A program made the position numbers and the translations under genes. DNA of 55,977 bases, from positions 1-55,977 of the forward strand of contig JAFUUL010000060.1 of assembly GCA_017483805.1 (NCBI GenBank). The letters run 5' to 3'. The notes under the pieces are model-generated. The model saw only the letters and a program-made list of their open reading frames with translations, searched no databases and had not been told where the DNA came from. The stretch is from Prevotella sp. Lineage in GTDB: Bacteria > Bacteroidota > Bacteroidia > Bacteroidales > Bacteroidaceae. Below, one piece after another: positions 36,037 through 40,707 of the stretch; position 1 is the stretch's first letter; each line of letters starts with the position of its first letter.

Positions 36037-36522
36037 ATGGAAGAGAATAAGGAGTATGTCCAAGACGAGTTATACGGTGAACGGTTACTGATAAATTTAA
36101 AGGCTGACCCAAGGGAGTTGCAGAGCAACATTCGTGCTGCTCGTGCCATACTCCATTCTTTCGTTGATATCACTATTATGATTAATGCCCACACGATGTC
36201 TTTTGGCCACAAGAATCCTGAGTACACCATCGACGGGCAACTGGGTGACCGCAAGGGCATCATGGGTGAGAAAGGTGTGACGGCAGGCTTCAAGGCCGCC
36301 AAGAAACAAGGCTGCAAGATTGTGGTAATTGACCTTGATGAACATATTCTGCAAGTGCGCTCCTTTGAACTCTCAAAATACATCTCTCGTAGAAAAGCCG
36401 ACTTTGTCAGCGGGATGATTGCCGCGTGCTATGTCGTGTTCAATGGTGAAGCCGTTGTAGTCAATGCCAGTGTACAAACACGTCGTGAGATAGAATCTGT
36501 TATAAAAGAATTAAAGCCGTAG
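36037..36522 (+). CDS. Possible BECR-fold nuclease (CdiA-CT tRNase-like)
   Basis: A 161-residue protein without signal or membrane segments. INAHTMSFGHKNPEYTIDGQLGDRKGIMG followed by GVTAGFKAAKKQGCKIVVIDLDEH has the order and spacing of residues seen in barnase/EndoU/ColicinE5/RelE-type nucleases and CdiA C-terminal tRNase domains (His, D/E-K-rich strand, and QGC-[KV]-VVIDL strand). This is resemblance recalled from family patterns, not a search result. No immunity gene is adjacent, which argues against a plain toxin. AT-rich composition and position next to the modification cassette suggest it belongs to the accessory island. Confidence 0.45.
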   Translation: MEENKEYVQDELYGERLLINLKADPRELQSNIRAARAILHSFVDITIMINAHTMSFGHKNPEYTIDGQLGDRKGIMGEKGVTAGFKAAKKQGCKIVVIDLDEHILQVRSFELSKYISRRKADFVSGMIAACYVVFNGEAVVVNASVQTRREIESVIKELKP

Positions 36523-36540
36523 GTACCCGACCCACGGCTT
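36514..36540 (+). terminator. Hairpin overlapping the end of the possible nuclease gene
   Basis: AAGCCGT (36514-36520) pairs with ACGGCTT (36534-36540); the stem covers the stop codon. No U-run follows, so it is a weak terminator call. Confidence 0.4.
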
Positions 36541-36634
36541 CTATAAATAGAACGGTTGCGGAGCTTGATGTTATCGCGCCTATATGCAACTCACATCCTT
36601 TTTTCTTTCTTTCTGCGAATTCCCCTTTTGACGC

Positions 36635-36696
36635 TGCAAAGATAGGCATTTTTATCTAATCTTCCAAACTTTTGCACTCTTTTTTGCAGATTTTTT
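36635..36696. repeat. Copy R1 of the radA-downstream sequence, with a minus-strand promoter
   Basis: TGCAAAGATAGGCATTT, then ATCTTCCAAACT and TCTTTTTTGCAGATTTTT are shared with 39319-39379. The minus strand holds TATCTTTG (36637-36644) and TTTG 20 bases away, a full promoter pointing left to no gene. Confidence 0.75.
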
Positions 36697-36728
36697 GCTA
36701 AAGGAGCAGTTATTCCATTTTATTTTCG

Positions 36729-36736
36729 TACCTTTG
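36729..36736 (+). promoter_or_regulatory. -7 box ahead of the long structured leader
   Basis: TACCTTTG. The first ATG of the methyltransferase is about 270 bases downstream. Confidence 0.65.
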
Positions 36737-36744
36737 CCATCGAA

Positions 36745-36970
36745 CACCGCCACGATGTCCGGGCGAGGACGGCGGTGGGACATAGTGGAAAAATATAACA
36801 AGCGTTTGCTGTTATTCGGAATTGCTCTGAAATGTAGGAAGTTTCAAACATATCAAACCGAATGAATAAGTCGCAAACGTCTGTGCGTTTTGCATGGGCG
36901 TGACTTATCCGGTTTGATGGGTATCCTACAACCTCAGAGCATGGGTGAGAAATCGTCCATGCTTTTGTTG
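36745..36970 (+). ncRNA. Folded 5' leader or small RNA upstream of the methyltransferase
   Basis: A hairpin at 36745-36777 (CACCGCC / GGCGGTG with inner GTCC / GGAC) and one at 36795-36815 are followed by a long nested structure: 36823-36830 with 36934-36941 (TGCTCTGA / TCAGAGCA), 36833-36839 with 36924-36930, 36852-36860 with 36910-36918, 36866-36872 with 36902-36908, and 36873-36879 with 36886-36893. That is about 38 base pairs in one 119-base arm. A competing hairpin, AGCATGG (36938-36944) with CCATGCT (36957-36963) then TTTT, excludes the outer pairing and looks like an attenuator switch. It matches no RNA class I can name. An independent small RNA is also possible. Confidence 0.6.
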
Positions 36971-37005
36971 TAGAAACCTATCTCCGAAGATAAGCAATAC
37001 GCATA

Positions 37006-38100
37006 ATGCATAAGCGTATGGCTAACAAAAACCTAAATGCTGCTAAGACAGCAAAAATGGATGAGTTCTACACGCAGTTGACTGACATCGAGAGGGAATT
37101 GCAGCACTATTGGCAGCACTTTCGCGACAAGGTTGTGCTGTGCAATTGTGACGATCCTTATGAGAGCAACTTCTTCAAGTACTTCGCGCTACACTTCAAC
37201 CATCTGGGGCTGAAGAAACTCATCTGTACCTGCTATAATGGTTCACCCGTGCAAGGGAACGAACTGATGATTGACTTTGGCGACTTCACGGATGAGCCGA
37301 AAAGGATTGCCTACAAGGTGGAAATCAAGGAGGTGAAGGACTTGAATGGCGACGGGGCAGTTGACCTCTCCGATGTGCGCTACCTCCTACAGAACGATAA
37401 GAACGTAATCAGCATTCTGAAGACGGGTGACTTCCGTGACCCTGAATGTATCGAATTACTGAAAGAGGCTGATATCGTCGTGACCAATCCGCCGTTCTCG
37501 CTGTTTAGGGAGTATGTGGCTCAACTGATGGATTACAACAAGAGATTTCTGATAATAGGTAACATGAATGCGCTCCACTACAAAGAGATATTCCCTTTAG
37601 TTAAGGATAATAAAATCTGGACAGGATATAAGTCTTATGGCGGTGGCATGGATATGATACAAATGCCTGAGGGGTTTGATCCGTCAAAAACAAAATCTTA
37701 TATCATCAATGAGAAGGGGCAGATCATAAAGAATATTATGGGATGTATCTGGTTTACCAATCTCGATATCAGTAAACGCCATGAGAGTTTAGACCTTGTA
37801 CGTCATTATTCGCCTGATGAGTATCCTACTTATGATAACTTTGATGCCATTGATGTCTGCAAGGTTCAAGACATTCCTTTCGACTACGACGGCATTATGG
37901 GAGTACCTGATACTTTGTTGGGACAATTCAATCCTGACCAGTTCGAAATAATTGGACTGGGTTGTGGTGATCTTGGAAAACAAATCGGTGTCGCTAAAAA
38001 CTATCGTGGCCGTACAGACTTAGCATATACAAAGAATGGCAAACATAAATGTCCTTACAGCAGAATACTAATCCGTAACAAACACCCACATACGATATGA
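37006..38100 (+). CDS. Adenine-specific DNA methyltransferase, EcoRI family
   Basis: A 364-residue DNA N6-adenine methyltransferase. The catalytic motif TNPPFSLF is at residues 160-167 (N161-P-P-F164). Family-typical features follow the pattern MDEFYTQ, DKVVLCNCDDPYESNFFKYFALHF, YNGSP, and an EF-hand-like DLNGDGAVDLSDVRYLL insert (about 109-126). It has no EcoRI endonuclease partner; the next gene, overlapping by 4 bases, is a DUF262-HNH protein. ATG at 37006 lies in a hairpin loop (ATACGC / GCGTAT); a second ATG at 37018 lies just behind. AT-rich compared with neighbours. The target sequence cannot be inferred: GAATTC is present several times in this window. Confidence 0.88.
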   Translation: MHKRMANKNLNAAKTAKMDEFYTQLTDIERELQHYWQHFRDKVVLCNCDDPYESNFFKYFALHFNHLGLKKLICTCYNGSPVQGNELMIDFGDFTDEPKRIAYKVEIKEVKDLNGDGAVDLSDVRYLLQNDKNVISILKTGDFRDPECIELLKEADIVVTNPPFSLFREYVAQLMDYNKRFLIIGNMNALHYKEIFPLVKDNKIWTGYKSYGGGMDMIQMPEGFDPSKTKSYIINEKGQIIKNIMGCIWFTNLDISKRHESLDLVRHYSPDEYPTYDNFDAIDVCKVQDIPFDYDGIMGVPDTLLGQFNPDQFEIIGLGCGDLGKQIGVAKNYRGRTDLAYTKNGKHKCPYSRILIRNKHPHTI

Positions 38101-39230
38101 TGACCATTGAGAAGAAAGAGATCACCGTAAGAGAGATAACGGAAGGATACGTCAACAACGATGATGAGGGCATCCGCGGCTATGGCGGCCTGCTCGACAT
38201 ACGCCCCAAATATCAGCGGGAGTTCATCTACAGCGACAAGGAGCAGGCGGCTGTTATCAACACCGTGCTGCACGGCTACCCGCTGAACGTGATGTACTGG
38301 GTGAAGCGAAACGATGCTGATGCACCCTGCCCCTACGAGGTGATGGACGGCCAGCAGCGCACGCTGTCCATCTGTGAGTACGTGGCCAAGAAGTTCTCGT
38401 TCGACTTCAAGAATTTCGACAATCAGCCTTCCGACATTCAGCAGCGCATACTCGACTACAAACTCGACATCTACGTCTGCGAGGGCGAGGACAGCGAGAA
38501 ACTGGAGTGGTTTAAGACCATCAACATCGCAGGCAAGCCGCTGAACGAGCAGGAGATACAGAACGCTGTTTATGCGGGCCCCTTCGTGAGCGACGCGAAG
38601 CGACACTTCTCTAAGCGCAACTGCGGTGCCGCTCAACTGAGCAAAGACCTGGTGCCAGGCTCACCTATCCGCCAGGAACTGCTGAAGAAGGCACTGGAGT
38701 GGATGGCTGCCCACGAGACACGTCAAGGGCACCGGCAGACGGCTGTGGGCTACATGAAAGACCACCAGCACGACCCGAATGCCAACAACCTATGGACGTA
38801 CTACCAGACGGTGCTGAACTGGGCAACGACCAACTTCGACATCAAGCGGTTCAGGAAGATTATGACTGGTCCCGACTGGGCTTGGCTCTATGACAACTAC
38901 GGGCCGCCTCACACCCTCGACACCGTGGCTCTGGGCAAGCGCATCAGCGAACTGATGCTCGACACCGACGAGATACAGAAGCCCGGCGGCATCATCCCCT
39001 ACGTGCTGACAGGCGACGAACGCTACCTCGACCTGCGGGGATTCCCTGAGAAGATAAAACTGGCCGTCTGGGAGGAGCAGGAACACAGATGTAAGATTTG
39101 CGGGCGGGAGTTCGACTTCGAATTCATGGAGGGCGACCACATCACCCCTTGGTGCGACGGTGGCCGCACGGTCATTGAGAACTGCCAGATGCTCTGCCTC
39201 GAGTGCAACCGGCGGAAAGGAGCGAAATAG
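38097..39230 (+). CDS. DUF262-HNH nuclease (predicted restriction or defence protein)
   Basis: A 377-residue protein. The DUF262 domain carries PKYQREFIYSDKEQAAVINTVLHGYPLN and the DGQQRTL motif (D84-G-Q-Q-R88), linked to NTP-dependent sensing in GmrS-type systems. The C-terminal third ends in an HNH nuclease (CKICGREFDFEFMEGDHITPWCDGGRTVIENCQMLCLECNRRKG, with C-x2-C pairs, D-H and N residues). Start overlaps the methyltransferase stop by 4 bases (ATGA), implying coupled translation. It most likely acts as the restriction or effector partner of the methyltransferase, though it lacks the DUF1524 half of GmrSD. AT-content falls toward the island's right edge. Confidence 0.82.
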   Translation: MMTIEKKEITVREITEGYVNNDDEGIRGYGGLLDIRPKYQREFIYSDKEQAAVINTVLHGYPLNVMYWVKRNDADAPCPYEVMDGQQRTLSICEYVAKKFSFDFKNFDNQPSDIQQRILDYKLDIYVCEGEDSEKLEWFKTINIAGKPLNEQEIQNAVYAGPFVSDAKRHFSKRNCGAAQLSKDLVPGSPIRQELLKKALEWMAAHETRQGHRQTAVGYMKDHQHDPNANNLWTYYQTVLNWATTNFDIKRFRKIMTGPDWAWLYDNYGPPHTLDTVALGKRISELMLDTDEIQKPGGIIPYVLTGDERYLDLRGFPEKIKLAVWEEQEHRCKICGREFDFEFMEGDHITPWCDGGRTVIENCQMLCLECNRRKGAK

Positions 39231-39318
39231 CGAGGGCAGAATCAGAGAGTTTCTTTGATTCCTCCTAAGACTTGTCAGCCCTTGGCGATCTGCCACGCGT
39301 TCTACCTTCTTTCACGTT

Positions 39319-39414
39319 GCAAAGATAGGCATTTCCCTGTTATCTTCCAAACTCTTGTGCTCTTTTTTGCAGATTTTTATCCGAAGAGGGCGCGAAGAGG
39401 GCGCGGAGGGCTTT
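39319..39414. repeat. Copy R2 of the radA 3'-flank, between the cassette and the RAYT
   Basis: The left part repeats R1 (36635-36696); the right part (39358-39414) repeats the last codons of radA and its downstream bases (40713-40758), with an internal duplication of AAGAGGGCGCG. The minus strand carries a TATCTTTG box at 39321-39328. Confidence 0.75.
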
Positions 39415-39434: not shown

Positions 39435-39466
39435 TTTGCCAGATTGGGGAATTCTTGTTATCTTTG
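39435..39466 (+). promoter_or_regulatory. Promoter of the RAYT gene
   Basis: TTTG at 39435-39438 and TATCTTTG at 39459-39466, 20 bases apart. It decides that translation starts after 39470. Confidence 0.6.
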
Positions 39467-39498
39467 CACAAATTAGTACATACCAAATTATAGGGATA

Positions 39499-40707
39499 GT
39501 GGCACAGGCAACAGACAATGGAGAAAGGCAATGGCGACCTGTAGACCCCTTGCGGCATCATCGCGAAAGGGGATGGGACTACCGGGGACGCGCCATCTAT
39601 CATTTCACGCTGCCTGTGGAAGGTCGGTATCCGCTGTTTGGGACACTCGAGGGCGAGCGTGCTGAAACGGCTTTCGTCAGGCTCAACGCTTTCGGACGGC
39701 GCGTGTGTCAGATGCTGAGTGGGCTGGCACGGTTTTACAGGGGGAAAGGCTATGAACTGAAGGTGCTGGCCCAGATGGTGATGCCCGACCATGTGCATCT
39801 GGTCATACAGGTGCTTGAGCCGCTGCCGCAAAGCATCGGGGCTGTGGTGCGGGGATTTAAGAGTGGGTGCACTAAGGTTTACAGGGAGGAGTTCTATTGC
39901 AGCGGCGAGAACGCCGCTGGAGGGCACGGAGGAGTGCTGGCGGGGGGCGCTGGAGGGCACGGGGGAGTGCTGGCGGGGGGCGCTGGAGGGCATGGGGATG
40001 TCCCGGTGCAATTTGGTCGCATTTTTGCGGGCAGGGGGAGTATCTGGCAACAAGACAAGGCCTATTACCACGAGCGAATACTCCATGCGCCAGGCCAGTT
40101 GCGCAGGATGATTGACTATGTGAAGGATAACCCGCGACGCCTCTGGCTAAAAAGGAAAAATCCAGAACTGTTTCGGATGCATAGGGAGACTGTGCTCTGT
40201 GGCTTGCCATTTACGTCGATGGGTAATCATTTTCTGTTGGAATGGCCTGACCGACAATTGGTGGAGATGTCACGGAGTGCTGACGGCGCTACCATTGACG
40301 GACGGCTAAAAGAGGTGCTGGCGGCAGCACATAATGGCGCGGTGACCTATACAGCAGCCATCAGCGACGGAGAGCGTCTCATAGCCAGAACCGTCCGCGA
40401 GCAGGGGTTCCCTCTGGTGGTGCTGCTGGCAGGCGGTTTTCCTGCTGAGGGGTCTCCACATGAAAGGTACTACAAACCTGGCGGTATCTACTTCGAAGCC
40501 TGTTCTAAAGGTCTCCTGCTGCTACTGGAGCCCAAAGAGAGTGCATACGAAAACCATGCAATAGTGGCGGCTGTGGAGGATGCACTGCGCAGAAAGGCTG
40601 AAGCCAGGCACTATCACTATATCGTTGTGCCCCACGTTTCACGGCGCTACCGTTTCGTTGCCCTAAATGAGATTGGACGATTGCTTGTCAGGCAAGTGGA
40701 TGTTTAG
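39499..40707 (+). CDS. RAYT: REP-associated tyrosine transposase (Y1/HUH)
   Basis: A 402-residue HUH-fold single-strand DNA transposase of the IS200-related REP type. The HUH motif is MPDHVHLVI (H-V-H), and the catalytic tyrosine is probably in IWQQDKAYYHERIL. RAYTs process REP palindromes, and REP-like pairs are present at 6343 and 53720. The start is GTG at 39499, because the -7 box lies just upstream and no in-frame ATG exists near. A 33-base repeat (39916-39981 and a third partial unit) inserts an 11-residue AGGHGGVLAGG-type array between the H-U-H and tyrosine regions. The C-terminal 170 residues (RLIARTVREQGFPLVVLLAGGFP and so on) form an extra domain. Confidence 0.82.
   Translation: MAQATDNGERQWRPVDPLRHHRERGWDYRGRAIYHFTLPVEGRYPLFGTLEGERAETAFVRLNAFGRRVCQMLSGLARFYRGKGYELKVLAQMVMPDHVHLVIQVLEPLPQSIGAVVRGFKSGCTKVYREEFYCSGENAAGGHGGVLAGGAGGHGGVLAGGAGGHGDVPVQFGRIFAGRGSIWQQDKAYYHERILHAPGQLRRMIDYVKDNPRRLWLKRKNPELFRMHRETVLCGLPFTSMGNHFLLEWPDRQLVEMSRSADGATIDGRLKEVLAAAHNGAVTYTAAISDGERLIARTVREQGFPLVVLLAGGFPAEGSPHERYYKPGGIYFEACSKGLLLLLEPKESAYENHAIVAAVEDALRRKAEARHYHYIVVPHVSRRYRFVALNEIGRLLVRQVDV
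39916..40014 (+). repeat. In-frame 33-bp minisatellite inside the RAYT gene
   Basis: Two full units at 39916-39948 and 39949-39981 and a degenerate third from 39982. Each encodes eleven residues rich in glycine (AGGHGGVLAGG). Confidence 0.85.

Follow-up and report, generated by a model that had tools for sequence, protein, structure and literature searches.

A covarying leader RNA family that probably switches restriction and secreted-protein genes in Bacteroidota

Transcription attenuators of the riboswitch and leader type work by strand exchange, in which a central strand pairs with one of two partners (1:2 / 2:3). Messenger RNAs of the hok type are metastable, and type II restriction-modification systems are known to be regulated by C proteins and by antisense RNA. 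We have analysed a stretch of 55,977 nucleotides (nt) from Prevotella sp. (contig JAFUUL010000060.1, positions 1 to 55,977; hereafter the window), in which a leader RNA precedes an EcoRI-family methylase gene and a DUF262-HNH gene. We put the chance at roughly 55% that this leader belongs to a large family of cis-acting leader RNAs in Bacteroidota and works as a transcription attenuator.

Like known attenuators, the RNA is a 5′ leader with a structured core, in which a protector helix competes with a helix followed by a U-run, and its clients lie directly downstream. It differs from them in reaching no Rfam threshold, in having restriction or defence, secreted and surface genes as clients rather than one metabolic pathway, and in that the arms of the window's putative terminator are 53 nt apart and cross helix P3. 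With hok-type mRNAs it shares a 5′ strand able to pair near the start codon and an ordered refolding in predicted folds, but members of the present family differ widely in how far they lie from the start codon. As with regulated type II systems, this is a restriction-modification operon whose expression is possibly controlled; however, no further gene lies between the two open reading frames (ORFs), and control would lie in a leader RNA that stands before genes unconnected with restriction-modification as well. No such leader was seen at the methylase loci of the Clostridia, of the Knoellia or of the two viral contigs.

The FopS small RNAs of Bacteroides, as outlined in PMC11697453, have a single-stranded 5′ stretch and a terminator hairpin, are mostly intergenic and act in trans. 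They too are a multicopy structured RNA of Bacteroidaceae, but that outline sets them apart from the present RNA, a long multi-helix leader standing before genes. Among the titles and opening lines of abstracts listed for Bacteroidetes leader RNAs, attenuators, riboswitch candidates, multicopy RNAs and methylase/DUF262 pairs, none describes it; the present family may nonetheless be one of the unnamed candidates in PMC8040213 (3161 in all) or one of the 64 structured leaders in PMC9723704. Parts of PMC2864571, PMC4619093, PMC7160235 and PMC7366714 were also covered in this comparison. The leader family is apparently undescribed.

Covariation among homologous leaders, the check proposed with the original prediction for this locus, was found in the stems. 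When 35 leaders were aligned (21 from methylase loci, 6 of the window-like type A before other genes and 8 more distant), 90.0% of cells were paired and 172 had changed on both sides of the pair, whereas shuffles gave 52.1 (standard deviation (sd) 7.8) and sliding the partner gave no more than 59. Across 79 matches to a covariance model, in an alignment that was fitted to the structure, 941 two-sided changes compare with 281.9 (sd 16.7) in shuffles. Several positions of the helix between strands X and Y carry all four Watson-Crick pair types there, and many G-U pairs occur in the apex helix. We hold it as close to certain that this is a structured RNA and a leader family.

All parts of the leader lie on the forward strand of the window. 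Strand X (36824..36839) is the 5′ side of helix P2, supported by the covariation of that helix, and its partner Y, together with P2b, spans 36919..36940. Between them stands the long hairpin P3 (36852..36918), whose helices covary in both alignments; the nested arm originally placed at 36823-36941 is P2 plus P3 (36824-36940). The 5′ arm of the P3 apex hairpin is strand L (36877..36886), which competes for strand M (GCATGGGCG, 36892..36900) with strand N (CGTCCATGC, 36954..36962). Behind N a U-run (TTTTGTTG, 36963..36970) marks a putative termination site, and strand Z (36967..36978) pairs with Y in the alternative fold found by prefix folding.

Both exchanges were examined with a cognate test, in which the pairing energy of strands within one leader is compared with that between leaders over 5000 permutations, using 46 representatives less than 80% alike, which were left from 51 once 5 that had no T-run under our rule were set aside. 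Cognate pairing was favoured for X:Y (z −26.6; better than non-cognate in 46/46), M:L (z −8.9), M:N (z −7.7) and Y:Z (z −6.9; 29/46 beat their own non-cognate mean), with 0/5000 permutations for each of the four. Controls were flat (reversed M, z 0.3; same-sense X-Z, z 1.0). As M pairs better within its own leader with L and with N alike, it has two conserved partners, and the same holds for Y with X and Z. The second leader type found at methylase loci, type B, follows the same logic (M:L z −6.2, M:N z −6.0, X:Y z −9.5), so that mutually exclusive conserved pairings of M occur in the 46 representatives and in type B. It is this parallel strand logic, together with a shared 5′ box, and not the covariance model, that leads us to treat types A and B as one family.

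The 3′ arm is commonly followed by U's. With N placed by its pairing to M alone, at least five T's in the 8 nt after N were found in 65/75 members against 12% of background windows. Four of the 79 rows, including L218 and L219, had been dropped because they had no usable M or less than 100 nt of downstream sequence. In Rfam 15 the window leader falls below every gathering threshold, and 16 loci with other members of the family likewise match no family at that threshold; relaxed thresholds gave chance-level matches only, all on the opposite strand. A known RNA class is thus unsupported as the identity of the leader. The covariation, the exclusive covarying pairings, the U-run and the lack of an Rfam match at gathering threshold give good support to the earlier proposal of an RNA switch of no known class.

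Predicted folds of the window leader are strong and change with transcript length. The leader at 36738-37060 folds to −110 kcal/mol (z −5.3; 0/100 shuffles as low) and the stretch 36815-36980 within it to −64.5 kcal/mol (z −6.7; 0/200 shuffles as low). In prefix folding, a transcript to 36945 has formed X:Y (P2) and L:M, whereas in one to 36985 P2 is lost and Y:Z with a local hairpin stands in its place. A competing hairpin had been placed at 36938-36963; it is predicted at 36936-36965, where it shares bases with the outer 3′ strand of P2.

From these pairings we infer that L:M would protect and that M:N with its U's would terminate. With L:M (and X:Y) intact, N would be free, RNA polymerase would pass the U-run and the gene would be on; once released, M could pair N, giving a terminator-like stem followed by U's at which transcription would stop. 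In type A, a local hairpin next to N may likewise form a terminator-like stem, and in type A leaders before the methylase a possible second layer would be pairing between the 5′ box and the strand just ahead of the start codon. A conserved core is present, and an aptamer role for it, as in a riboswitch, is putative.

Several points weigh against attenuation. A simple terminator scan of the plus strand at 36500-37100 reported none, and a separation of 53 nt between M and N is long for a terminator loop; as M:N also crosses P3, it could be a pseudoknot without termination. The U-run is missing in 10/75 members, covariation between P2b/Y2 and N is absent overall (z 0.3 in the 46 representatives), and the permutation test leaves relatedness partly uncorrected. 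In type B the reversed-M control drifts (z −2.8) and the N-O pairing is weak (z −1.5). The longest folds (36738-37060 and 36745-37040) do not keep L:M, and the clients share no theme pointing to a sensed signal.

Some of the same folds could instead describe a translational switch, in which pairing between the 5′ box and the pre-start strand (in type B, a pre-start hairpin) locks the message until refolding, much as in hok-type metastable mRNAs, the U-run being incidental. The 5′ box (AACAAGCGTTTGCTGTTATTCGG, 36797..36819) is nearly invariant across 24 type A leaders and can pair internally (about 36857-36879) or with the pre-start strand (TCCGAAGATAAGCAATACGC, 36983..37002), itself conserved in type A. 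The alignment fold of the 24 leaders keeps box/pre-start pairing in nearly all, the transcript of 36745-37005 shows it, and the type B pre-start hairpin covaries (z −5.3). However, 35 bases more change the fold again, so that the pairing is lost at 36745-37040, as it is at 36738-37060, and cognate pairing of the 5′ box with its downstream partner, at z −4.7 overall, is weak within type A (z −1.5). A translational lock also leaves the U-run coupled to N unexplained, and because 26-325 nt separate the model match from the start codon behind it at other loci, a single lock on the ribosome-binding site is hard to generalise. We regard this explanation as unlikely, and attenuation remains our preferred reading. 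An upstream peptide was also considered and rejected: an ORF from ATG 36754 crosses the 5′ box, and indels of varied length in alignment A1 disfavour a conserved peptide.

The family extends well beyond the methylase. Covariance model R1 was built from type A and more distant members, and its E-values are rough. Counting only the best 150 candidates scored, so that copy numbers are lower bounds, it finds at least 7 places at E≤1e-3 and at least 11 at E≤1 in the window's own genome, and across the genus matches in 15/20 genomes, with at least 11 copies in one. With the best 17-20 candidates scored, matches at E≤1e-4 occur in 56/178 drawn genomes of the order (at least 17 copies in some, 17 being all that were scored per genome in that set) and in 9/148 of the phylum; the genus, order and phylum sets each include the window's own genome. 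Pattern searches of 301 same-family genomes gave 22 sites in 20 genomes for the type A 5′ box (at most one mismatch; none for the reversed pattern) and 52 sites in 41 genomes for that of type B (at most two mismatches; one for the control), several of them not beside a methylase. Together, the pattern and covariance-model searches rule out a leader private to the methylase. An 18-nt pattern searched order-wide occurs in 19/344 genomes, with 10/19 sites judged real by eye, and a type C box, searched across the phylum, gave one of 247 genomes, the site scoring an unconvincing 22 bits with R1.

Searches by blastn found no leader in plasmids (window, L158 and type B L003 leaders) or in phages (L158 leader), and viral contigs held 0 exact matches each to the box A and box B patterns; the type C box occurs in 3. 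Three contigs from viral collections (L158, L159, L160) carry the leader, that of L158 before an HSDR_N-like gene resembling one in the window's own genome.

The clients are mixed. A same-strand ORF of at least 80 residues lies behind 75/79 matches, against 8/45 on the divergent side and 418/1580 (26%) at random places; 8 of the 79, the window included, precede the query methylase. The scan of client proteins covered 68, drawn from 72 sites that belong for the most part to the same genus (L177 dropped for lack of an ORF, and the first L179 site, L209 and L183 for ORFs that were not credible). Among them, the first 25 of 91 Pfam families include LRR_5 (8), EcoRI_methylase (5), N6_Mtase (4), SNF2 (4) and MmeI, HSDR_N and PLDc_2 (3 each). 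The first 25 of 104 PADLOC families include type II methylase models (6 and 5), type IIG (3), DrmD (3) and HKD+Snf2 (2). About 25/68 clients, counted by eye, are restriction or defence genes, and BspA-type leucine-rich-repeat and other secreted proteins are also present. In other families (61 sites, of which 2 lie at contig ends and 1 has no ORF; L242 is the same place as L119), many clients have, by eye, signal-peptide-like or lipoprotein-like starts, and some are methylases or small proteins resembling helix-turn-helix (HTH) proteins. Defence genes are therefore a large client class, not the sole one. Very small HTH-like proteins (66 and 70 residues), alike by eye, stand behind the leader in L165, from the window's own genome, and in L225, from another family. 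Five loci (L264, L265, L266, L267, L269) have two leader-plus-gene units in the same orientation 1.1-3.1 kb apart, and in L264 and L265 the genes behind the two leaders are similar.

The position of the leader before genes bears on the suggestion of a regulatory small RNA, made in the original prediction alongside that of a switch. On such a view termination at the U-run would free a trans-acting RNA of about 200 nt, the gene behind being a mere neighbour; a promoter box upstream, the U-run downstream and many copies per genome would all fit. The box (TACCTTTG, 36729..36736), which we take to be of the Bacteroidota −7 type, agrees with the promoter claimed ahead of the genes: TAnnTTTG lies within 150 nt upstream of 63/78 family members (1 of the 79 had too little upstream sequence), whereas the same DNA gave 6.2 when shuffled and 2 when reversed. 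A sigma-70 scan found no promoter in the window's leader region. The small RNA is nonetheless made less likely by the same-strand ORF directly behind 75/79 matches, and at methylase loci the conserved leader reaches right up to the start codon. Copies within one genome have widely different sequences, which would disfavour a shared target. Attenuation in cis is the better reading, and a small RNA as the main product seems improbable.

At methylase loci, leader and genes could be compared directly. A methylase match occurs in 90/301 same-family genomes, and 64 loci were fetched (32 from named genome contigs, 2 from viral contigs and 30 from same-family genomes, the window's own included), of which 3 begin inside the gene. 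The leader is present in 52 of the 61 with upstream sequence; the nine without it are two Clostridia, one Knoellia, two environmental Bacteroidetes, two viral contigs, one labelled Prevotella and one family genome. One of these viral contigs (L036) carries broken methylase pieces. Types A and B are about equally frequent, giving a set of 24 A (window copy included) and 24 B; L038 and L040 are contigs seen twice, the leaders of L060 and L061 were recognised by R1 only, and L043 was omitted from alignment A2 and L015, L025 and L059 from A4. R1 recognises type B poorly (best 27.8 bits). The leaders of L008 and L025 share 91% identity with that of the window, whereas for the methylases the figures are just 68% and 60%, so that at these two loci conservation is higher in the leader than in the genes.

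A tree of 48 methylases implies 13 changes of leader type, at least 9 of them forced by well supported branches, against 16.4 on average with shuffled labels (31/500 need as few). Leader type is therefore hardly tied to gene ancestry, and comparison of the sequences indicates that leader and genes are exchanged independently. Between the start codon and the last stop, the sequences of L045 (type B) and L049 (type A) agree at 97.6%, and their flanks gave no blastn match (about 1.5 kb before, less than 200 nt after); L014/L041 (84.4%) and L059/L065 (79.8%) are likewise alike from start codon to last stop, with different leaders and unmatched flanks. It looks as if coding pairs had been swapped between resident loci. 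As the first codons of L045 and L049 differ, the junction probably lies within conserved coding ends, and no new mechanism would be needed for this case if a resident copy had been replaced by homologous recombination. The window at 36679-36810 and the leader of L157 (G000:C77), which has an HSDR_N-like gene behind it, share about 92% identity over the promoter and 5′ hairpin, a likeness that ends inside the 5′ box. That the element is instead a recombination or mobility site exchanging coding cassettes and folding as single-stranded DNA would accommodate the changes of leader type, the L045/L049 pair, the tandem leaders (two cases with similar genes behind) and leaders near contig ends in several genomes, but is very unlikely given the G-U pairs of the apex helix, a mark of RNA, the strict orientation before a start codon, and exchanges that may sit in conserved coding ends and be explicable by homologous recombination.

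The gene pair itself is as originally described, two overlapping genes for an EcoRI-type methylase and a DUF262-HNH protein. The first (37018..38100, forward strand; the longer ORF starts at 37006) matches EcoRI_methylase (PF13651) over its full length with 485 bits and is an EcoRI-family adenine DNA methyltransferase. Its start had been placed at 37006; the start kept in nearly all relatives is ATG 37018, with 37006 an in-frame upstream ATG. The second (38097..39230, forward strand), a probable restriction endonuclease, overlaps it by 4 bases and carries GmrSD_N (DUF262, PF03235) and HNH (PF01844) domains. Because the DUF262-HNH protein matches the PADLOC type II restriction-enzyme model REase_II over its length (residues 2-376, 392 bits), the reading we favour for the pair is a type II-like restriction-modification system with predicted cleavage. 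Both proteins are matched in 62/64 methylase loci, those of Clostridia and a Knoellia among them. Methylase relatives also occur in 77 plasmid records, and two of the 20 listed name a DUF262 protein under the match as well.

Other features surround the locus. A 69-nt direct repeat (86%; 36627-36695 and 39310-39378) lies on both sides of the leader and gene pair. Just downstream, the ORF at 39436-40707 has a Y1_Tnp (IS200-like transposase) domain (24.4 bits against a cut-off of 23), and just upstream a small protein (36037-36522) has a weak CdiA_C match of 22.7 bits, under the Pfam cut-off of 26.6.

We take the leader to be a probable on/off switch that many defence and secreted-protein genes have in common. 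It had been seen as a device for delayed restriction expression, a role that is not well supported, since the same RNA precedes unrelated genes and nine methylase loci have no leader. We offer only tentatively the wider notion of a phylum-wide switch class that would tune defence and surface genes together in response to a single shared signal, such as phage attack or envelope stress. Since the competing strands are known to the base, a search for the trigger would be a concrete experiment. If our reading is right, a large regulatory RNA family of a main gut and rumen phylum is missing from Rfam, and it would open a direct way into the regulation of restriction and surface-protein genes in Bacteroidota.
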